Positions 47,634 to 58,142 of a stretch of DNA of 64,000 nt are shown piece by piece. The notes under the pieces are model-generated. The model was not told the origin of the DNA, ran no database searches, and saw only the letters and a program-made list of their open reading frames with translations. The translations under genes were made by a program, and so were the position numbers. Source of the DNA: Rhinopithecimicrobium faecis (lineage in GTDB: Bacteria; Bacteroidota; Bacteroidia; Sphingobacteriales; Sphingobacteriaceae); contig JAGKSB010000002.1 in the NCBI GenBank assembly GCA_017942165.1, positions 186,001-250,000 of the forward strand, written 5' to 3'. How positions within the stretch are numbered: position 1 is the stretch's first letter; each line of letters opens with the position of its first letter.

Positions 47634-48560
47634 CTAAACTTCGCGCTCTATATAAGTGCCGATCATTTTCAATAGTGCCTCTTTGCGTTTAACTCCAGTA
47701 AGATTCTGCTCATAAAGGCCATCTAGTGCTTGGTATAACAGCAAGCCATTGACTTTTTTATGCAATTTGATACGTTTTGCATCCTGCATAAGCAGCGACC
47801 ATGCTTCACGTGTATCAGTCCAGAAATCCTGCGCTGCTACAGACCAATATTTTCGCGCCTGAGCACAATCGGCATCTGCTAATCGGATGTAAGTATTAAA
47901 CCCCTTTTCCTCCGCAATAAGTTGATCCACTTTCCCGGGATTTCTTAGAATTTTGAGATTATCTTGCTCATGGTTATAGCCCTGCCCTGTAAAGACTATT
48001 TTATTACTGCGCTGCAAGATATTATAATCACTGCGCTTCGTAAATTCCCTTCTAGGAAGTGGTGCATCAGTCGTGTTAAGCCAAAATAATTGCTTATTCG
48101 TATTTACCCAGTTCGAGGAACCTGCATAGCGCGGTGCATCGTCTACCTCCCAGACAGTTTGCACCCATTGCCCTTTGACAGCTGCTTTAGGAACCGTTAC
48201 TTTCGTCCACTCCTGATCGTTGGTAAAGTTCCACCAACTCGTCTGCTCATATTCCCAATCCTCACGCCAATGTTTAATAACCGTACCTTTTCCATCGGGA
48301 ATTACTAAGAGATGTTGAATAACGATCTTTTGAGGACTTTCCTCAATTGGAAATGCATACTCCACCACGCTAGCCGTCTTTCGGGGCTTAGCAAAATGCT
48401 TAGTTACGGTATCCGTACTAAAAGTTTCCGCATAATTAAATGTCACCGCAAAACATCCACATAGCTGTTTAATAGCTTGCTGATCCGATGGAGATTGTGC
48501 CTGTGCCGAAGCTGCTAATAATAGGCCTGCAAGAAAGAGAGGCAATTTTGGTTTTTTCAT
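47634..48560 (-). CDS. DUF6607-like exported protein
   Basis: 308 residues with a signal peptide (LPLFLAGLLLAASAQAQSP). The conserved start of the mature part, QLCGCFAVTFNYAETFS (about 32-48), EDWEYEQTSWWNFTNDQEW and WEVDDAPRYAGSSNW fit, to my recollection, the DUF6607 family. The activity is unknown. The protein has two Cys in CGC near its N-terminus and many aromatic residues, and looks like a soluble periplasmic beta protein. It is divergent from the SusC-SusD-M16-ChaN operon. Two related repeats lie in the shared 181-bp spacer, suggesting joint control. Confidence 0.7.
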   Translation of the reverse strand: MKKPKLPLFLAGLLLAASAQAQSPSDQQAIKQLCGCFAVTFNYAETFSTDTVTKHFAKPRKTASVVEYAFPIEESPQKIVIQHLLVIPDGKGTVIKHWREDWEYEQTSWWNFTNDQEWTKVTVPKAAVKGQWVQTVWEVDDAPRYAGSSNWVNTNKQLFWLNTTDAPLPRREFTKRSDYNILQRSNKIVFTGQGYNHEQDNLKILRNPGKVDQLIAEEKGFNTYIRLADADCAQARKYWSVAAQDFWTDTREAWSLLMQDAKRIKLHKKVNGLLLYQALDGLYEQNLTGVKRKEALLKMIGTYIEREV

Positions 48561-48617: not shown

Positions 48618-48694
48618 ACTAGATTATAAATAGGCAATACGAACGTAATTAAATTTCCACAATAATAACATTAATTTAGACTAGATTAAAATAA
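48618..48694. promoter_or_regulatory. Paired operator-like repeats between the DUF6607-like gene and susC
   Basis: ACTAGATTATAAATA (48618-48632) and ACTAGATTAAAATAA (48680-48694) share 12 of 15 positions and are 62 bp apart. The second sits in ATTTAGACTAGATTAAAAT, a partial palindrome, and overlaps the expected -33/spacer region of a TATTATTG -7-like element at 48700-48707. An iron-dependent DtxR/Fur-like regulator is conceivable but not shown. Confidence 0.4.
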
Positions 48695-48741
48695 AGTAGT
48701 ATTATTGCGCAAATTAACTATTTTAATTAAGAGCTGGTCTC

Positions 48742-51700
48742 ATGAAACTTTTACTTCCAACATATCTATTAATTCATCTTTTATTCTTTCTTACCCCCTT
48801 AGCATACACACAGACTAAAAGCTATTCAGGGGTCCTAATAAATAGCGCTAATAATCAGCCTGTGGAAGGAGCAACCTTCTTTATAGGGACAAATAAAACG
48901 GCTATTGGAACTTCAAAAGCAGATGGAAGCTATCGCTTTAATATGGATTATGCGGCCAACAACGTAGATCCTGTTGCCAAATTAAAAATTCATCATATTA
49001 GCTACCGAGACACTGTTTTAGTCCTAAAGCAAGGCTATCAACAAATCTACCTGCAGCCAAAAGCCAATATGCTGGAAGAGGTCGTAATACAGCAGAAGAA
49101 TATCAATGATATTGACATCCGAAATCTCGTAGGATCCGTATATGAAGTTGACATAAAAAAACTTAGTGAGCGATCAGAGCTGGATATGGGGAAATTATTG
49201 GAAGGCCAAGTTCCAGGGCTAACGGTCAAATTCTCCGGCGAGCTAGGCTCCAAACCTGAAATTCGCATTCGTGGTAATGCCTCCTTTGCGTATGCCCAAA
49301 ATGCCAATCAGCCACTTTTTGTGATGGATGGAATGATTATTTCTGCGGAGAATTTTCTAACATTAAATCCACAAGATTTCGCCAGCATAAAGGTGCTAAA
49401 GGATGCGCCAGCAACAGCATTATATGGAATAAAAGCCGCCAATGGTGTCATAGAACTAACTTCAAAAAAAGGATTTCACGGATCCCCTGATATAACGCTG
49501 TCCCTGAATCAGGGGATAACCTTTCGCGGAGAACGTACGGTAGAAATGATGGGGACAACGGAGAAATTAGCCTTTGAAGAAAGCATACAGGCCATTAGCA
49601 CCCCAGGATATCGGTATTCACCAAGCTATATCCGCCGACAGTATACGAATCCGGAAGAACTAGAAAGGCAGTTAGCACGTGGGGCATATTATTTAGATTC
49701 GCTGCAACAGTATAATACGGATTGGTTCAGGGAGCTCGTGAAGCCCAATACCTTCCAATCTTATAATCTTGGTATACGTGGGGGTACGGAAAAAAATTCG
49801 TACTTCTATTCTGCAAACTACAGCAAGCAAGGGGGACGCATGCCCGGAAATGCGATAAACCAATTTACCGCACGTGCCAACTTAGACTATATCCTTACAG
49901 ATCGCCTAAGTATATCCCTTAATAACTCATTTGGACTCTCGACTACAAGAAGCCAAAATGGGGAAAATAATGACCCTAGTACCCTTGTATACGCCTTGAA
50001 CCCCTACGAAACAAGAGAATCAGGAAAACTAACCAGCTACGATGGCAGATCGTTTAGTAATCTCATCGACCAGTTTCATAAAAGGTCTACCTCTAAAAGA
50101 TTTAGCTCCAGCTTAATTGCCCATTGGGATGTACTTCGGGGGCTTAATATATCCGGAATTATTGGTATAGATTACGGACTAGAGGAAATCTATGAACGTA
50201 TTTATGCAGACGCCTTTAGCCAACGTAATGAGCCTAACAATGCTAAGGGATTCTTAAAGGAAGGGGATCGTAAAAATTTTGGCTTGACAAATAATATCCG
50301 CGCCAACTACCAACGTCAATTTGGGGATCATGATCTTTATGCAGGCTTTAATGTCGATTACTACTATAACTCTTGGAAGAGCTTGGAGGCTGAAGGTAAG
50401 GGGATCTCCGATGATATGGAAAGCCTCTCGGGAGTAAACGCTAGCCTACTCCATGGGAATCAACCGAAGATTGCAGGCAATAAAGTCGCCGATAAACAGC
50501 TCGGATTTGGCGCAGCCATGGGATACACCTTTCAAAATCGATACGCCTTTTACGCCAGCATCAAAAGAGATGGCTCTTCGATGCTTCCGCAGGAGAAACG
50601 TTGGAACAATGCATGGTCCACAGGCTTGGGGTGGACTCCCAGTGCTTATGCCTTTTTTAAAGAACAACATATCGTAACAAATTTAGCTTTCAAGCATTCC
50701 ATAGGCTACACAGCGAGCATGGCAGGAATTAATAGGCGCGATATACAAACTTCCTTTCTTCAGGACAACAACTTTTATGGCGCCAACCGGGTGCTCGAAC
50801 TTATTGCTCTGCCCAATAAACAATTAATTCCCCAGCAGACCTATACCGCCAATAGCAGCATGGATTTAGGCCTCTTCAACCGCATAAATTTAAGTGTCAA
50901 TCGCTATACGCATATCACCAAACAAGCTATTATTCAAGTTCCTATTGCCAGCAGCAATGGCTTCAAATCCTACGCCCAAAATATTGGAGAACTACAAAAC
51001 TCAGGCATAGAAATAGCCCTCTCAGGAGATATAATACGTAAAAAATCCTGGCGATGGAATAGCTCCATAGCCATCTCACACAATAAAAATAGGGTCAACA
51101 AATTATATGGTGGCGACAAGTTATATCTCAATGCGCGTTCCGTAATACCGGATTATGAAGTTGGTCAGCCACTAGGGATTATTTATGGCTTACAAAGCCA
51201 TGGTATTCATCCCTTAACAGGGATCCCACAGTATGTGAATCAGCAAGGAGCTACGATTGATTACAATCGACCCGTAGAAGCACATTATTTCAATAATTTA
51301 GGTCTGTCCATTGCGCCATATTCCGGCTATTTCAACCATTATATTGTTTATAAAAACTGGTCTTTTACCATGAATATAAATTTTGGCTTTGGGGGTATAG
51401 CAGCCTACAGTAAATCCTATGTGCGGGATGCTAAATCAGCGAATTATAATGCCTTAAAAGGACAGCTTCAGCAGATGTGGTTTGAAATTGGGGATGAAAA
51501 TAAAATTTACCCCATCAAAGATCTACCGACAAATATCAACGATCTATACCAATCATATGCCAATAACAAAACCATTTATAAAACCGATTTCATAAAATTA
51601 AATCACCTCCAGCTTAGCTATGCGATAAACTCCTTCACAGGAATGCTAAAATACCTTAAAAATCCAAAAATCAGATTACAGGCTGACAACCTATATACCT

Positions 51701-51780
51701 TGCGCTTTGAACAAGATCGTGGATCGCTCAACGATGTACTACAGCCCGTACTAACATTTTCCTTAACGACCAGCTTCTAA
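48742..51780 (+). CDS. SusC/RagA-family TonB-linked transporter of the peptidase/haem locus
   Basis: 1012 residues. Signal peptide (LLIHLLFFLTPLAYTQTKS), a carboxypeptidase-D-like domain (about 27-110, YSGVLINSANNQPVEGATFF), the junction LEEVVIQQKNINDIDIRN, the plug with PLFVMDGMIISAENF and IKVLKDAPATALYGIKAANG (about 193-240), then a 22-strand-type barrel ending LQPVLTFSLTTSF. The plug is somewhat divergent from glycan SusC proteins (no GYG at the TonB-box region). It starts an operon with SusD (1 bp), a lipoprotein, an M16 peptidase and a ChaN-like protein, so the cargo is more likely a peptide, protein or haem than a sugar. Confidence 0.93.
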   Translation: MKLLLPTYLLIHLLFFLTPLAYTQTKSYSGVLINSANNQPVEGATFFIGTNKTAIGTSKADGSYRFNMDYAANNVDPVAKLKIHHISYRDTVLVLKQGYQQIYLQPKANMLEEVVIQQKNINDIDIRNLVGSVYEVDIKKLSERSELDMGKLLEGQVPGLTVKFSGELGSKPEIRIRGNASFAYAQNANQPLFVMDGMIISAENFLTLNPQDFASIKVLKDAPATALYGIKAANGVIELTSKKGFHGSPDITLSLNQGITFRGERTVEMMGTTEKLAFEESIQAISTPGYRYSPSYIRRQYTNPEELERQLARGAYYLDSLQQYNTDWFRELVKPNTFQSYNLGIRGGTEKNSYFYSANYSKQGGRMPGNAINQFTARANLDYILTDRLSISLNNSFGLSTTRSQNGENNDPSTLVYALNPYETRESGKLTSYDGRSFSNLIDQFHKRSTSKRFSSSLIAHWDVLRGLNISGIIGIDYGLEEIYERIYADAFSQRNEPNNAKGFLKEGDRKNFGLTNNIRANYQRQFGDHDLYAGFNVDYYYNSWKSLEAEGKGISDDMESLSGVNASLLHGNQPKIAGNKVADKQLGFGAAMGYTFQNRYAFYASIKRDGSSMLPQEKRWNNAWSTGLGWTPSAYAFFKEQHIVTNLAFKHSIGYTASMAGINRRDIQTSFLQDNNFYGANRVLELIALPNKQLIPQQTYTANSSMDLGLFNRINLSVNRYTHITKQAIIQVPIASSNGFKSYAQNIGELQNSGIEIALSGDIIRKKSWRWNSSIAISHNKNRVNKLYGGDKLYLNARSVIPDYEVGQPLGIIYGLQSHGIHPLTGIPQYVNQQGATIDYNRPVEAHYFNNLGLSIAPYSGYFNHYIVYKNWSFTMNINFGFGGIAAYSKSYVRDAKSANYNALKGQLQQMWFEIGDENKIYPIKDLPTNINDLYQSYANNKTIYKTDFIKLNHLQLSYAINSFTGMLKYLKNPKIRLQADNLYTLRFEQDRGSLNDVLQPVLTFSLTTSF

Positions 51781-51781
51781 T

Positions 51782-53155
51782 ATGAATATATCCTATCTTA
51801 TTCCCCTACTTCTGCTTGTCAGCGCATGTAACTTGGAAGTAAAACCTGAAAATGAAATCTCTGGGGATGCTATTATAAACACCATTCCCAAAGCGGAATC
51901 ACTCCTTTCTCAAGCTTACGTAAGCCTGCAATTCAGCCCCGAAGACTACAGCGTCCTAACGGAAGATTTTCAGCCTACATATCTCATCAGCTATCAGATA
52001 GACCTACAGCAATATCACGCCTGGAATGAAGCTGTTATTGAACGCCGTACAGCACAAATTTGGGAGGCCAATTACAATGCCCTTGTACATCTCAACACCC
52101 TCTTAAACTCGGAACCTTACCTCAATAGCGCGCAAGACAAATGGTCTACACTCAAAGGGCAAGCTTTAGTGCTGAAAGCATATATCTATTTTGACCTCTT
52201 ACAACTGTTTAGCAAGCGGTATGACCCCCAAGAGGCAGGTATTATCCTTAAGGAATCCAATATCTTGGCTACAAACCCTAGGCTGACACAGGCTGAAAGC
52301 TTAAAAGCTATCGAGAATTTCCTCTCTGAAGCGGTCGCTTTATTAAAAGATAATAATGACACACAAATTTATTATATGCAGCTCCCAGCAGCATACCTAC
52401 TCCAAGGTCAGGTCGCCCTATTCCAAAAAAAATATGCGGAGGCAGAACAACGGATAGCCCCTTTACTAGCTAAAAATAAAAGCTTACCGCAGCACAAGGA
52501 TGAGATTCGAATGTTGTGGAACAATAGTTTGACTGCACAGTCCCCCCACGTACTATGGGCCTATGACTACCGAACACACCCCAATAATTACCTGTATTAT
52601 ACCAATCGTAATGAAGGGGATTACTTTCAAGTAAACAACCTATTTTCCTTTGAAGAGCAAGACCTGAGAGCAACTATCAGCCTTTTTAAAATGGAAATGA
52701 AGACCCTTTCTGGCCAAACAGGTGTACGTCCCCTATTTGGGAAATACCGCAGTACCCTACAGGATCAGCTGGAGCGAATGCCTGTCATGATGCGCCTAAC
52801 GGAAGCACATTTCATCCTGCTAGAGTCTCTTATAGAACAGAATAAGCTCCCCGAAGCGGTAGCCACGTTGAATAGATTCTTTACCTCTGTAGGCCTAACG
52901 ACAATTCCTAGCCAGCAATCGCAGCAGTCCCTCAGACTTAGACTCAGACATGAAAAACAAAAAGAATTTATAGGGGAGAAAATAAACTTCTTAGACTTAA
53001 AAAGATGGAATAAGTCCATCTCACGCTACCTTCCCGATAGCAATACGCTAAGCGTAACGATTCAAGCCAGTGATTACCGATGGACTTGGCCAATTCCAAC
53101 TTCAGAAAGACGCTACAACACCTTGGTAAGCCAAAATCCAGGCTGGCTATTCTAA
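51782..53155 (+). CDS. SusD/RagB-family lipoprotein of the peptidase/haem locus
   Basis: 457 residues, shorter than the glycan-type SusD in this window (549). Lipoprotein signal YLIPLLLLVSACNLE, lipidation at Cys 16. Family segments are IWEANYNALVHLNTLLNSEPYL, GQALVLKAYIYFDLLQLFSKRY (about 126-147), LTEAHFILLESLIEQNKLPEA and the C-terminal RHEKQKEFIGEKINFLDLKRW. It lies 1 bp after its susC. The RagAB pair of Porphyromonas, which takes up peptides, is a functional precedent for a non-glycan cargo. Confidence 0.9.
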   Translation: MNISYLIPLLLLVSACNLEVKPENEISGDAIINTIPKAESLLSQAYVSLQFSPEDYSVLTEDFQPTYLISYQIDLQQYHAWNEAVIERRTAQIWEANYNALVHLNTLLNSEPYLNSAQDKWSTLKGQALVLKAYIYFDLLQLFSKRYDPQEAGIILKESNILATNPRLTQAESLKAIENFLSEAVALLKDNNDTQIYYMQLPAAYLLQGQVALFQKKYAEAEQRIAPLLAKNKSLPQHKDEIRMLWNNSLTAQSPHVLWAYDYRTHPNNYLYYTNRNEGDYFQVNNLFSFEEQDLRATISLFKMEMKTLSGQTGVRPLFGKYRSTLQDQLERMPVMMRLTEAHFILLESLIEQNKLPEAVATLNRFFTSVGLTTIPSQQSQQSLRLRLRHEKQKEFIGEKINFLDLKRWNKSISRYLPDSNTLSVTIQASDYRWTWPIPTSERRYNTLVSQNPGWLF

Positions 53156-53183
53156 TAGTATATACTTATTAATTTATTAATGC

Positions 53184-54395
53184 ATGAAAAATTCAAAAAT
53201 TACCTTACTGCTGCTAACCCTGATCACCCTAGGCACTTCATCCTGCGAAAAGAATAAGAATGAACAAGAATTTCTGGGTAAAAATAAGATTGTATTAAAA
53301 TCCAACAACAGCAACGTACTTCAAAATAATGGGTACGACAAGATCCTTATTGATGTGATGCTGATTACGGCAGCTGCGGAAACAATAGATCTAGAATTTT
53401 CGTTAGATCAACCTGCAGCACCTGGAGATAGCAGCGGTAGGAAGGATATTCTGACAATAGAAAACCCTAAAATAACCCTTAAAGCAGGGGAGAAATTTGC
53501 CCAACTAACGATTAAAAGCCTTCCTGAAGTCCCGCTTACTGAAGCCGTAGATGTCCTGCTACAGCTGAAAACAAATTCTAGCAAAATACCCCTGGAAGGG
53601 CCTTTAAAATTAATCGTACAGCCAAATATAGCAACTGTAGCACTCTCCGAAGAGAAGATCCGCCTGCTAGAAATCTATAAGACCAAAGGTTTGGACTTAT
53701 ATCCTTTGATGGGCAACAAAAATCTGACCGGAAAAATCAATTTCCCAGGTGGTGGAAGCTTAATAAGCTTAATTGACAAAGCCGAAATAACCCTCAGTGG
53801 AAAGACACAAATTACCCTGAGCGACCTGGCGACAGCAGAACAGCCGGTCTTAAAGATGGTATCCAATGCAATGGGCATTGAAAATTACCTGTATACCTTA
53901 TTTCGTAATTTAACAATTGACGATTTAGAAATTTGGAATTCAATAAGTAAGGATGCTCCCCCAGCACCCAAGAAAATAATGGATTTAATCAAGCTATCCC
54001 GCAATTCCGCGGAAACATTTACAGTCTCCTTAGACGCTATAAAAATAGATCTCAACACGAAGAAAGTAACGTTTATACACGAATATCAAGACCTAAGATC
54101 CGATATCCTCATTCAAGCGGTACCCTTTGACTTCCACTATACAGCATGGGATCGCTTGCAAAAACTTATAGAGGCAAAGAATCCCATAGCGCTGGAAAAT
54201 ACAGAACAAGGGGGGTCCGTGAACCCCAGGGTATACCTAAATACAGAAGGTATCCTTGCCAATGAATATACTGATGGCATCAACTGGACGCCGTCCACAG
54301 CAACGCTAACGGAGCAGCTTCTAGCTTTTAAATTCTTGCTAGGCCATGAGAATATGAACGACTATATCCAAGTTTCTGTAGCTTACAACTTATAA
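53184..54395 (+). CDS. Surface/periplasmic lipoprotein, DUF4929-like
   Basis: 403 residues with lipoprotein signal LLLLTLITLGTSSCEKN, lipidation near Cys 21. The N-terminal half (about 30-150) looks like a calx-beta/Ig-type strand-rich domain (IDLEFSLDQPAAPGD, ITLKAGEKFAQLTIKSLPE). The C-terminal half has LMGNKNLTGKINFPGGGSLI, LSDLATAEQPVLKMVSNAMG and PFDFHYTAWDRLQKLIEAK, which I associate with DUF4929 with moderate certainty. No catalytic motif is visible. Placed between susD and the M16 peptidase (28 bp and 2 bp gaps), it is a candidate surface-exposed receptor component or cargo-binding protein. Confidence 0.65.
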   Translation: MKNSKITLLLLTLITLGTSSCEKNKNEQEFLGKNKIVLKSNNSNVLQNNGYDKILIDVMLITAAAETIDLEFSLDQPAAPGDSSGRKDILTIENPKITLKAGEKFAQLTIKSLPEVPLTEAVDVLLQLKTNSSKIPLEGPLKLIVQPNIATVALSEEKIRLLEIYKTKGLDLYPLMGNKNLTGKINFPGGGSLISLIDKAEITLSGKTQITLSDLATAEQPVLKMVSNAMGIENYLYTLFRNLTIDDLEIWNSISKDAPPAPKKIMDLIKLSRNSAETFTVSLDAIKIDLNTKKVTFIHEYQDLRSDILIQAVPFDFHYTAWDRLQKLIEAKNPIALENTEQGGSVNPRVYLNTEGILANEYTDGINWTPSTATLTEQLLAFKFLLGHENMNDYIQVSVAYNL

Positions 54396-54397
54396 TA

Positions 54398-57259
54398 ATG
54401 CGCTTTTTAGTACTACTTCTATGCTTTTGGCCCACATTTACTTGGGGCCAAAAGTTGAACCATAAATTACCCATATCAGCAGAATCCTGCATAGACAGCT
54501 TAAAAAATGGCTTTCAATATATCCTCCATCCCAGTAATGATGCAGGCATTGAAGTCCGATTGGTCATCCATGTAGGCTCGTTACAGGAAAATAGTAAACA
54601 ACTAGGATTTGCGCATTATTTAGAGCATATGCTCTTTAATAGTAACCAAGAATTCCCTAACAATACGCTCCGCGATCGTTTAGAAATGCTGGGCTATCGC
54701 TTTGGCAGAGACTTTAATGCCTATACCAATTATGATAGAACGGTATTGAGCTTTAAACTTATTGATAAAGCCCATCTCCCCCTGCTACTCGCTATTATTC
54801 AGCAGATGCTGCATACCGCAGAAATTAATGAACAAGAATTTGAAAAGGAGCGTAAGATTATTATCCAAGAAATCCATGATAACAGTGAGGAGACCATTTT
54901 TGTGGATGCCAAGATCGCGGGTACCCGCTATGCTGACAGACTCCCTATCGGAAACCCCGAAGCTATTTATAACGCCAAGGCTCCAGCCTTAAAGGAATTC
55001 TATAAAAAATGGTATCGGCCGGAGCTTTTTACACTTATTATCTGCGGCGATATAGCGCTCACAACTACCGAAGAGGCTATCAAACAAAAGTTTAGTGACC
55101 TCCAGCCCTCATTAATAAGAAAATCACGCCTGCAGAATCTCTATAGCTTTCAGCCTAGCTACACACGTCAATTTGACCAACGTATAGACAAGACTTTAAA
55201 GAGTAATAAACTTGAAATTACGTCCTTTTCAGTGGCGCCACCAGTTCGCAGAGTCCCTGACTTCCAAAGGCAGGTCTTGGAGGAGCTATACAAGAAATTT
55301 ATAGCTAAAAAATTAAACCAATTTCCCGATTTAGCAAAATACTTTATCAATTGGTTTCTACCGAATATGAATGAGGTTACCCTTGTGTTTTCTTCGGACT
55401 CAAGAAAAGATCTTCTCAAAAAGATTGAACAGACGGCACAGCTGATGACGACAATTTCCAATGAAGGGATTACCAGTGAAGAGTTTGAAACGCTAAAAGC
55501 TGATTATCTAGCGCATGCAGGTAGCTCTAAACAAATATATCCCGCCGCCGCCGTCGCTGACTATTATGTCGACCAAGCGGCCATTCAAGAGTATTTCCTA
55601 ACGAACAAGCAGCGGCTCCTCCTGATAACGCAGATTCTCCCGGAGATACAAGCTGCAGATTTACGCGAGATACATCAAAAAAGATGGTTCCCAAAAGAAA
55701 ATAAGCGCTTCTACTTAATGGATATTAACCCCTCCCTATTCGAGATTGAGGGCTTTGAAAACTTAGAGGAAGCCTGGCAGAAAGGAATAAACAGGAAGCA
55801 AACACTAAGACCGCCGGTGGGAGTAGGTAAACCATTTTCCGAAAAAAAAACTTCCACAGACTCCTTATCCTTTAAAAATTTCAGTTGGCAACAGCTGCCT
55901 GCGGTTCGTACAACCCATGCAAAGACTGGGATCGCCAAAGAGCAGTATTTTAGGGAGCTTAACTGTACGGAAATAACCCTGGATAATGGGCTTCGCATTG
56001 CACTAAAGCCGAATAAAAACACCAATAAAGAGATTGTCTTAGCATTTAGCACATCCAAAGGATTGCAGCAACTTAGTGCTAAAGCGTATCCATATTACCA
56101 AGAAATAAACTATTTCCTGAGCAACTCTTGGTTAAAAGGGCTCCATCAGGAAGCTAGTCAGGAGCTAGCCATGCAGAAAAATATAACAAGCTACCTCTAT
56201 ATAGATGACTTTGAAACTGTCCTACAGGCTTCCGTACGCCATACGGAAGGCGCCCTCACTGACCTTATAGAAATGTGCTATCGGAGGTTATACCTTTATG
56301 AGCAACCGAAAGCGGAGTTTAAAGAATTTAAACAAGCGGAAATTGCCAAGTTAACTAAACCTGCACACGTTGAGGACACGGTAAATTCGCCTTTTTTCAA
56401 GTACCCAAATTTGGATAAAAAACGCCGTATTCAAGCCTATAAATCCGCCTATAGAGAGTCCGTAGACTCCCTATGGATCGCTGAAGAACATGAACTGGAA
56501 AATGTAGATTGGCGAAAGGTAAAGCTCAGCAAGATGTTTTTATTTTTTGATGCACTAATAAGCCAGCCCACGGAAAATTATATCGTGCTTTCTGGAAACT
56601 TTGACCTGGCAGAAGCAAAATCACTTTTGTCGTCCTATTTTGGTGCAATTCCAACAGTCAAAAAAAATAAAAACCCCCACTATAAAAACAACAAAACCTA
56701 TCAAAAGAACAGAAGCACCGTTCAGCAACCCGAAAATACCGCTGAAAGGCAGGATTTCACGATCCTCTATCCAGGTGTATTTCAAAGAACCCTCAAGGCG
56801 CGTATTATCACGCAGATGATTACCGAACAGCTTACTATGGACTTAATAAATACTACACGTGAACAGCTAGGCCTAGTATACACTCCATCGGTAGACATTG
56901 AGCTGCTGATGAATCCGCAGCCTCGAAGTTTTCTATCAATCAATTTTTCTGCCCAAAGTAGCGATATCGCGCAGCTCCAAGAGGCCACGAAAAGACTATT
57001 ATCTAAGCTTCAGCAAGAGGAGCTCAGTAGCACGCAGCTGGTCAAACTAAAACGTAAAATTGCCATCAATAAACAGATACATTTAGACGACTCCTCGGCA
57101 CAAAAATGGGCAGAAACGCTTCAAGCGCAGTATCTCATGTTTGACAGCCTCACAGATTTTAACGATTATGAGCGCCTGCTAAAGGAGATTACCACAGCGG
57201 ATATTCGTGCTTGCGCCCAACAACTGTATGCCACAACAGCATTTCAACTTTTCTATTAA
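54398..57259 (+). CDS. M16-family metallopeptidase, PqqL/FusC-like architecture
   Basis: 953 residues with a signal peptide (MRFLVLLLCFWPTFTWGQ), hence periplasmic. The inverted zinc motif HxxEH is H73-Y-L-E76-H77 in LGFAHYLEHMLFN, and the third ligand is probably Glu 158 in ERKIIIQEIHDN, so the first of the four M16 domains should be active. The second half (about 520-953) begins CTEITLDNGLRIALKPNKN and has no HxxEH, as in clam-shell M16A/M16B enzymes. Such peptidases degrade unfolded or small substrates enclosed in a chamber. Length and signal match E. coli PqqL and Pectobacterium FusC, both linked to iron acquisition. It lies 2 bp after the lipoprotein gene. Confidence 0.9.
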   Translation: MRFLVLLLCFWPTFTWGQKLNHKLPISAESCIDSLKNGFQYILHPSNDAGIEVRLVIHVGSLQENSKQLGFAHYLEHMLFNSNQEFPNNTLRDRLEMLGYRFGRDFNAYTNYDRTVLSFKLIDKAHLPLLLAIIQQMLHTAEINEQEFEKERKIIIQEIHDNSEETIFVDAKIAGTRYADRLPIGNPEAIYNAKAPALKEFYKKWYRPELFTLIICGDIALTTTEEAIKQKFSDLQPSLIRKSRLQNLYSFQPSYTRQFDQRIDKTLKSNKLEITSFSVAPPVRRVPDFQRQVLEELYKKFIAKKLNQFPDLAKYFINWFLPNMNEVTLVFSSDSRKDLLKKIEQTAQLMTTISNEGITSEEFETLKADYLAHAGSSKQIYPAAAVADYYVDQAAIQEYFLTNKQRLLLITQILPEIQAADLREIHQKRWFPKENKRFYLMDINPSLFEIEGFENLEEAWQKGINRKQTLRPPVGVGKPFSEKKTSTDSLSFKNFSWQQLPAVRTTHAKTGIAKEQYFRELNCTEITLDNGLRIALKPNKNTNKEIVLAFSTSKGLQQLSAKAYPYYQEINYFLSNSWLKGLHQEASQELAMQKNITSYLYIDDFETVLQASVRHTEGALTDLIEMCYRRLYLYEQPKAEFKEFKQAEIAKLTKPAHVEDTVNSPFFKYPNLDKKRRIQAYKSAYRESVDSLWIAEEHELENVDWRKVKLSKMFLFFDALISQPTENYIVLSGNFDLAEAKSLLSSYFGAIPTVKKNKNPHYKNNKTYQKNRSTVQQPENTAERQDFTILYPGVFQRTLKARIITQMITEQLTMDLINTTREQLGLVYTPSVDIELLMNPQPRSFLSINFSAQSSDIAQLQEATKRLLSKLQQEELSSTQLVKLKRKIAINKQIHLDDSSAQKWAETLQAQYLMFDSLTDFNDYERLLKEITTADIRACAQQLYATTAFQLFY

Positions 57260-57284
57260 CTTACTGTAGTACTCAAAAAAAAAA

Positions 57285-58142
57285 ATGAAAAAACTATTTA
57301 TAATACTCCTTATGCTGCCCCTTTTTACGCAGGCACAAAATAAAGATTACAGAATTTATGCTGTTGCTAAACAGCAAGAAATAACAGTAAGCCAACTTGT
57401 TAGTGAGCTGAAGCAGGCCGATGTCATCTTCTTTGGTGAAGAGCATCAGGATTCCATCGCTCACCTGCTGGAGCTCGCCTTGCTCAAAGGCCTACATCAG
57501 CAGCAACCAAAGGTCACCCTTTCAATGGAAATGTTTCAGACAGATGTACAGCCTATCTTAAATGAGTATCTGCAAGATTTAATAAGTGAAAAAAACATGA
57601 TTCAAGAGGCCCGTGCATGGTCCAATTATAAAGACTATAGCCCTTTAGTAGCCTATGCAAAAAAACAAGGTATCCCTATTCTTGCTGCCAATGCGCCCTC
57701 CCGCTACACAAACCGTGTGACACGCCTCGGCCTTCAGAGTCTTTCACAGCTTAGTGAGGATGCAAAAGCCTGGCTTGCCCCGCTCCCCATTGACACCCTT
57801 ACTGGCGCCTATTATGAAAAATTTGTTTCCCTGCTCGGGGGGCATTCCTCCCTGGGATCATTTCAGCTTTATCAATCCCAAAATCTATGGGACGCCACCA
57901 TGGCATGGCAGCTTGCCACGCATAAAAAGCTGCAACAGCAGCAGCAGATATTACATATTAATGGAAAGTTCCATAGCGACGAAAGACTGGGCACCTACCT
58001 GCAGTTACAAAGGTATGCTCCGCAGTATAAGCTGCAAACGATCTCCTGTATGCCCGTGGAAGCATATCCACCTCCAGCTTGGCAGCAATGGCAATCGATT
58101 GCAGACTATATTATTCTTACGCAGTCAGCCACAATAGATTAA
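57285..58142 (+). CDS. ChaN-like haem-binding-family protein
   Basis: 285 residues with a signal peptide (MKKLFIILLMLPLFTQAQ). VIFFGEEHQDSIAHLLEL (about 48-65), LSMEMFQTDVQPILNEYL (about 79-96), YKDYSPLVAYAKKQGIPILAANAP (in two halves, about 112-135) and WDATMAWQLA match the order of motifs in the ChaN/cofacial haem-binding family (DUF399). Family knowledge: Campylobacter jejuni ChaN binds two stacked haems and is iron regulated; related EreA-like folds are hydrolases. No lipobox Cys is present, so this copy is probably soluble periplasmic. It is last in the SusCD-lipoprotein-M16 operon (25-bp gap). Confidence 0.85.
   Translation: MKKLFIILLMLPLFTQAQNKDYRIYAVAKQQEITVSQLVSELKQADVIFFGEEHQDSIAHLLELALLKGLHQQQPKVTLSMEMFQTDVQPILNEYLQDLISEKNMIQEARAWSNYKDYSPLVAYAKKQGIPILAANAPSRYTNRVTRLGLQSLSQLSEDAKAWLAPLPIDTLTGAYYEKFVSLLGGHSSLGSFQLYQSQNLWDATMAWQLATHKKLQQQQQILHINGKFHSDERLGTYLQLQRYAPQYKLQTISCMPVEAYPPPAWQQWQSIADYIILTQSATID

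Follow-up and report, generated by a model that had tools for sequence, protein, structure and literature searches.

We analysed a 64,000-nucleotide stretch of Rhinopithecimicrobium faecis DNA (contig JAGKSB010000002.1, positions 186,001 to 250,000; hereafter the window), in which five plus-strand genes form an operon encoding a SusC transporter, a SusD lipoprotein, a DUF4929 lipoprotein, an M16 peptidase and a ChaN-family protein, with intergenic gaps of 1, 28, 2 and 25 bp. A sequence-only reading had already described these five genes, their order, their single strand and gaps of 1–28 bp, and all of these details were verified against the open reading frame (ORF) list and by profile matches (Pfam and NCBIfam for SusC and M16; Pfam for SusD, DUF4929 and ChaN). 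The first gene (48742–51780) encodes a 1012-aa SusC/RagA-type TonB-dependent transporter that matches TIGR04056 at 457.8 bits (cut-off 368 bits) and PF07715 (Plug). It stands 1 bp ahead of the gene for a 457-aa SusD/RagB-type surface lipoprotein (51782–53155; lipobox VSAC; PF07980 and PF14322, both above cut-off), whose relatives in the Protein Data Bank (PDB), found by sequence search, include SusD and RagB; the pair has the make-up of a SusCD/RagAB transporter.

The third gene (53184–54395) encodes a 403-aa DUF4929 lipoprotein (lipobox TSSC; PF16283, 204.7 bits), presumed to be an accessory surface binding protein. It is followed by a 953-aa single-chain M16 peptidase (54398–57259; PF00675, 86 bits; PF05193, 95 bits) and a 285-aa ChaN-family protein (57285–58142; PF04187, 201 bits, cut-off 27.7 bits). 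As read from the sequence, lipoboxes are found on the SusD and DUF4929 proteins, while the M16 peptidase and ChaN carry signal peptides only. Searches with the DUF4929 protein returned only chance matches in the PDB and no occurrence in viral contigs, and its structure model, a single-sequence prediction with a pLDDT of 32, was discarded.

A polysaccharide utilisation locus was considered and ranked lower. Pfam finds neither a glycoside hydrolase nor a polysaccharide lyase among the five genes; the earlier reading had likewise argued that the lack of a glycoside hydrolase in the operon speaks against a polysaccharide locus. The GC content of the operon (41–45%, versus 41% in its flanks) gives no signal of horizontal insertion. 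Downstream of the operon lies an O-succinylhomoserine sulfhydrylase-like gene, to which we draw no link.

The control region holds a candidate iron box. A 23-bp palindrome, TTATTTAGAATnATTnTAAATAA, precedes haem operons throughout the genus Sphingobacterium, sampled here by 94 genomes alongside a family sample of 201 and a phylum sample of 396, with the window genome counted in each. Within the 3.14-Mb window genome, near-perfect copies lie 16–90 bp ahead of seven TonB-dependent receptors, HmuT, a haem oxygenase and an extracytoplasmic function (ECF) sigma gene. This placement is that of an iron-regulon (Fur-type) box, to which Fur would be expected to bind. A perfect copy also stands directly before the gene for an ankyrin-repeat protein on contig 29 (L305:13–1485).

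Scanned with the genus iron-box matrix, the 64 kb yields as its top hit a degenerate Fur-like palindrome, TAATTTAGACTAGATTAAAATAA (48672–48694, + strand), located 48 bp before the SusC start. Under a matrix built from other genomes it scores 13.9 bits (runner-up in the window, 8.2), and under an own-genome matrix 19.7 bits (runner-up, 9.9; training sites, 24.9–31.2). When the intergenic region was shuffled 500 times, 4 shuffles reached this score, and 868 kb of control loci contain three such scores. At two related loci the box is stronger and near-perfect, scoring 28.3 bits between HmuY and SusC in Sphingobacterium sp. JB170 and 23.7 bits at 51 bp before the SusC ORF in S. humi, and in each case it ranks first in a 19.5-kb locus.

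The Bacteroidota −7 consensus is TAnnTTTG. An element matching it at 7 of 8 positions, TATTATTG (48700–48707, + strand), begins 5 bp past the window box and would serve as the promoter; JB170 has a similar arrangement after its box (TATCTTTG). Scans for sigma-70 promoters and terminators yielded no more matches than shuffled sequence. On these motif matches, iron control through the window box is probable. A DUF6607 gene (47634–48560, − strand) diverges from the operon, shares the intergenic region and box with SusC, and is possibly co-controlled.

The gene set itself recurs. In JB170 (locus L172), the five genes follow HmuY in identical order, HmuY–SusC–SusD–DUF4929–M16–ChaN, with identities to the window proteins of 34% for SusC, 26% for SusD, 24% for DUF4929 and 49% for ChaN; its M16 peptidase has 807 aa and the M16 and ChaN genes overlap by 4 bp. 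The HmuY gene (PF14064, 44.8 bits) lies 101 bp ahead of the SusC ORF; farther upstream is a Peripla_BP_2 gene. S. humi JCM 31225 (L171) carries SusC (56%), SusD (44%), DUF4929 (50%) and M16 in the same order and has its ChaN in a separate haem operon (L189). Because the full order recurs in JB170 and four of the genes in S. humi, the five-gene set is not a chance assembly. With ChaN orthologues solitary outside Sphingobacterium and a thioredoxin as the partner of SusCD–M16 in related genera, it is nevertheless a rare, specialised variant. Its rarity shows in the counts: DUF4929 occurs in 3 of the 94 genus genomes, 1 of the 201 family genomes and 1 of the 396 phylum genomes. As the sole carrier in the last two samples is the window genome, DUF4929 was dropped as a phylum-wide marker.

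A third locus replaces the protease. In Sphingobacterium sp. UT-1RO-CII-1 (L190/L212), the order is ECF–FecR–SusC–SusD–296-aa protein–S8 subtilase–ChaN–Peripla_BP_2 (PF01497)–FecCD–ABC ATPase–HemS, where the subtilase (PF00082, 166 bits) fills the slot held by M16 and the ChaN orthologue is 57% identical to that of the window; FecCD, the ABC ATPase and HemS were assigned through 56–79% identity to Pfam-tested genes of another locus (L191). This exchange of S8 for M16, with the ABC transporter and HemS in line, suggests that the loci have in common a proteolytic step and a subsequent transfer of haem. After FecR the set reads as a single operon (L190:657–14068), a subtilase version that includes its own haem ABC transporter.

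Could the operon simply import peptides or proteins for carbon or nitrogen, in the manner of RagAB, with M16 trimming the peptides and ChaN as an unrelated passenger? The closest full-length M16 relatives outside the genus belong to ECF–FecR–SusC–SusD–TlpA/AhpC thioredoxin–M16 operons of other Sphingobacteriaceae genera (L149–L152), which have no ChaN, and both the S. humi operon without ChaN and the solitary ChaN orthologues found elsewhere fit such a function. Against it, an iron-regulon box lies ahead of SusC in JB170, S. humi and the window alike, and ChaN follows SusCD and a protease in three loci, two of which also contain HmuY or HmuTUV–HemS. We consider general import unlikely. The sequence-only reading had named a consistent absence of ChaN from homologous loci as a result that would count against it, and this came half true: JB170 has the gene, whereas S. 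humi and the distant SusCD–TlpA–M16 operons lack it. In those distant operons import is coupled to thiol reduction as well as to peptide cleavage, which suggests a cargo of disulfide-bearing peptides.

Within the genus, ChaN keeps company with haem genes. PF04187 was detected in 15 of the 94 Sphingobacterium genomes, and each of the 15 ChaN copies in genomes other than that of the window has haem genes as neighbours (HmuTUV and/or HemS; HmuY in JB170). HemS is present in 14 of 14 other ChaN-positive genomes versus 24 of 79 ChaN-negative ones (Fisher P = 6.5e-7, uncorrected for phylogeny). Outside the genus, 75 readable orthologue loci have no haem-uptake set near ChaN, which there sits mostly beside rnpA–yidD and mscL; for this orthologue group, linkage to haem genes is therefore a trait of the genus. 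Several species have paralogous ChaNs (30–41%) as the last gene of Hmu operons. A maximum-likelihood tree places the window ChaN in a clade of 12 rows (support 99/93) together with ChaNs of Sphingobacterium haem operons, Parapedobacter and Chitinophagaceae. One further copy, within an otherwise Hmu-type operon (L200:8963–9786, genome G632), is split into two frames and is probably a pseudogene.

The sequence and predicted fold of the window protein are both those of ChaN. Its single PDB sequence relative is Campylobacter jejuni ChaN, and an AlphaFold model built from 25 aligned orthologues (pLDDT 88) has haem-bound C. jejuni ChaN (2g5g) as its best Foldseek match in the PDB (E = 5e-16; TM 0.71/0.79). 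The next matches are EreC (E = 5.6e-5, TM 0.48) and Bcr135-type proteins, which raises the alternative of a hydrolase of the EreA/ChaN/TIKI fold, a second enzyme that would complete peptide breakdown or cleave a haem-linked group. An alignment of 59 ChaN homologues has nineteen invariant positions, including Y118, and the resemblance of G51-E52-x-H54, H60, E82, H187 and H230 to an enzyme pocket speaks for that alternative. Against it, haem-bound 2g5g is the better match to the model by eleven orders of magnitude in E-value, with a TM of 0.71 versus 0.48 for EreC, and among the near-invariant tyrosines Y118 aligns with a tyrosine of 2g5g; ChaN proteins bind haem through a tyrosine and form dimers. 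Hydrolase activity is the least probable of the explanations that we weighed, and very unlikely; a role of ChaN as an esterase was likewise ranked lower. The window ChaN is presumed to be a periplasmic haem-binding protein.

The M16 active site is intact, as had been claimed: the zinc motif H73-Y-L-E-H77 (residues 73–77; 54614–54628, + strand) is complete and the third ligand, Glu158, is encoded at 54869–54871. The motif aligns with an intact HFLEH in S. humi and HYIEH in JB170, and its spacing of 81 to the glutamate equals that of FusC (80HMVEH84-E165; table in PMC12731061). The closest PDB chain is 9ldy, named just 'Peptidase, M16 family'; other near relatives in a phmmer search are PqqL (6ofs, E = 1.3e-39) and FusC (6b03, E = 8e-27). 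The enzyme is presumed to be a periplasmic processing protease. Another M16 enzyme, falcilysin, appears in PMC12731061 as a complex with a haemoglobin substrate.

The closest M16 enzymes of solved structure include PqqL and the ferredoxin-cleaving FusC (PMC6071955, PMC6793856), which also raises the prospect of non-haem iron piracy. In this scenario the cargo is a ferric peptide or an Fe-S protein such as ferredoxin, M16 works exactly as FusC does and ChaN binds some cofactor or chelate other than haem. Haem and other forms of iron are not told apart by the iron box. Against this scenario, all ChaN copies of the genus cluster with HmuY, HmuTUV and HemS, not with siderophore or Fe-S genes, and the ChaN fold matches a haem-bound structure. 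Piracy of non-haem iron is improbable, marginally more so than general import.

The remaining haem machinery is encoded elsewhere in the window genome. Contig 12 carries HmuTUV (HmuU 56%), a TonB receptor, two HmuY-like proteins and two haem oxygenases, so that an inner-membrane route and an iron-releasing enzyme are present outside the operon. A HemS gene is absent from the genome; HemS was therefore rejected as the haem-degrading partner, and the haem oxygenases were found instead. The contig 12 cluster (L294:6746–16348) has tandem HmuY-like lipoproteins, HmuTUV divergent from the TonB receptor, and three strong iron boxes. In haem operons at other loci (L191:12663–15700, L189, L192), an 864-aa TonB receptor and HmuY flank a lipoprotein of 500–570 aa that belongs to no Pfam family.

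The reading that we favour, with somewhat better than even confidence, is that of an iron-controlled, haem-directed operon for the acquisition of proteins or peptides. Low iron would lift Fur-type repression at the box before SusC. SusC–SusD and the DUF4929 surface lipoprotein, to judge by their families, would then bind a haem-carrying polypeptide or haem-loaded peptide and import it with TonB power; PMC13142918 cites (as its reference 43) a SusCD transporter that imports whole small proteins. In the periplasm, the M16 clam-shell peptidase, its active site intact, could cut the polypeptide and free the cofactor, as FusC does with ferredoxin. The ChaN-like protein would take the haem and might pass it to the HmuTUV transporter encoded on contig 12, after which the haem oxygenases of that cluster, whose genes are present, would release the iron. 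The sequence-only reading had likewise proposed, from family names, that a metalloprotein or haem-peptide may be the cargo, digested by M16 and relieved of its cofactor by ChaN; its haem and iron direction is supported by the JB170 gene order with HmuY, by the ABC transporter and HemS of UT-1RO-CII-1, by the 15 of 15 ChaN copies in haem clusters, and by the box before SusC, which is weaker in the window.

Several observations weigh on the other side. Apart from ChaN, the window operon holds no haem or iron gene, and the genome, as stated, has no HemS. The window box is degenerate: sites with at most three mismatches number 128 genome-wide versus 71 in a reversed control, so that about half of its mismatch class is noise. 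The S. humi operon does without ChaN, and ChaN orthologues outside Sphingobacterium stand alone in the rnpA–yidD/mscL neighbourhood. The ChaN of the JB170 M16 operon forms a separate long branch and does not group with the window ChaN, which means that the M16–ChaN pairing either dates far back and diverged fast or has arisen twice; the ChaN tree together with the 20% identity of the two M16 peptidases indicates that it may have arisen twice. M16 is less conserved than SusC, both in S. humi (about 31–33% versus 56%) and in JB170 (20% versus 34%), which hints at replacement or at adaptation to a different cargo.

A broader proposal, which we put forward tentatively and hold to be possible rather than probable, casts the operon as a Bacteroidota equivalent of Fus, derived from SusCD machinery for glycans or peptides. 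Here SusCD would serve iron piracy by importing an intact haemoprotein or a large haem-peptide, M16 and S8 would be interchangeable as the periplasmic protease, and ChaN would accept the cofactor. Protein import with proteolysis for iron has so far been described for FusA-type transporters in Proteobacteria; a survey of protein import–proteolysis systems (PMC6793856) was built on a search for FusA homologues, with SusCD outside its scope, and our text searches, whose coverage left out most subscription journals, returned no paper linking SusCD plus M16 or ChaN to haem. If the haem reading is right, the function of SusCD extends to haemoproteins, DUF4929 and a periplasmic ChaN gain a role, and the iron box and co-occurrence pattern help to find such loci in other genomes.

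Among known systems, the proteobacterial precedents are FusA–FusC of Pectobacterium, in which FusC cleaves ferredoxin (PMC6071955), and YddB–PqqL of E. coli (PMC6793856). The window operon shares with them a TonB-dependent transporter, a single-chain M16 peptidase with intact HxxEH, probably iron-linked regulation, and presumed import followed by periplasmic cleavage. Unlike them, it has a SusC–SusD transporter (TIGR04056) in place of the FusA family, two groups that PMC6793856 treats as distant; it adds a DUF4929 lipoprotein and ChaN, and its M16 is distant. There is also no ORF for a TonB-like FusB between 45000 and 62000. Since both the transporter family and FusB are lacking, the operon is not a member of Fus, though it would work much as Fus does.

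RagAB and other peptide-importing SusCD systems resemble the operon in having SusC and SusD with no glycoside hydrolase alongside, and differ in that the window operon has a dedicated M16 peptidase, ChaN and an iron box. The SusCD–TlpA–M16 operons likewise have SusC, SusD, a third gene and M16 in line; their third gene, however, encodes an AhpC/TSA thioredoxin, they are ECF–FecR regulated and lack ChaN, and their M16 is about 25% identical. The UT-1RO-CII-1 locus has SusCD, a lipoprotein, a peptidase and ChaN in matching slots, and departs from the window in its S8 subtilase for M16, its unrelated 296-aa protein for DUF4929, and its haem ABC transporter and HemS within the operon. ChaN of the C. 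jejuni type is a lipoprotein tied to a haem receptor gene, in contrast to the window ChaN, which has no lipobox and is partnered by SusCD.

With the Hmu/Hfp haem clusters of Bacteroidota (PMC9331221), the connection runs through the Sphingobacterium ChaN orthologues at or inside Hmu clusters, the HmuY of JB170 and the same Fur-like box. The window genes do not unite HmuY, a receptor and HmuTUV/HemS as an Hmu operon does; they use SusCD and a protease instead of a 680–870 aa haem receptor, with HmuTUV and haem oxygenase located elsewhere. Set beside all of these, the operon is a SusCD system that would handle its cargo in a new way.

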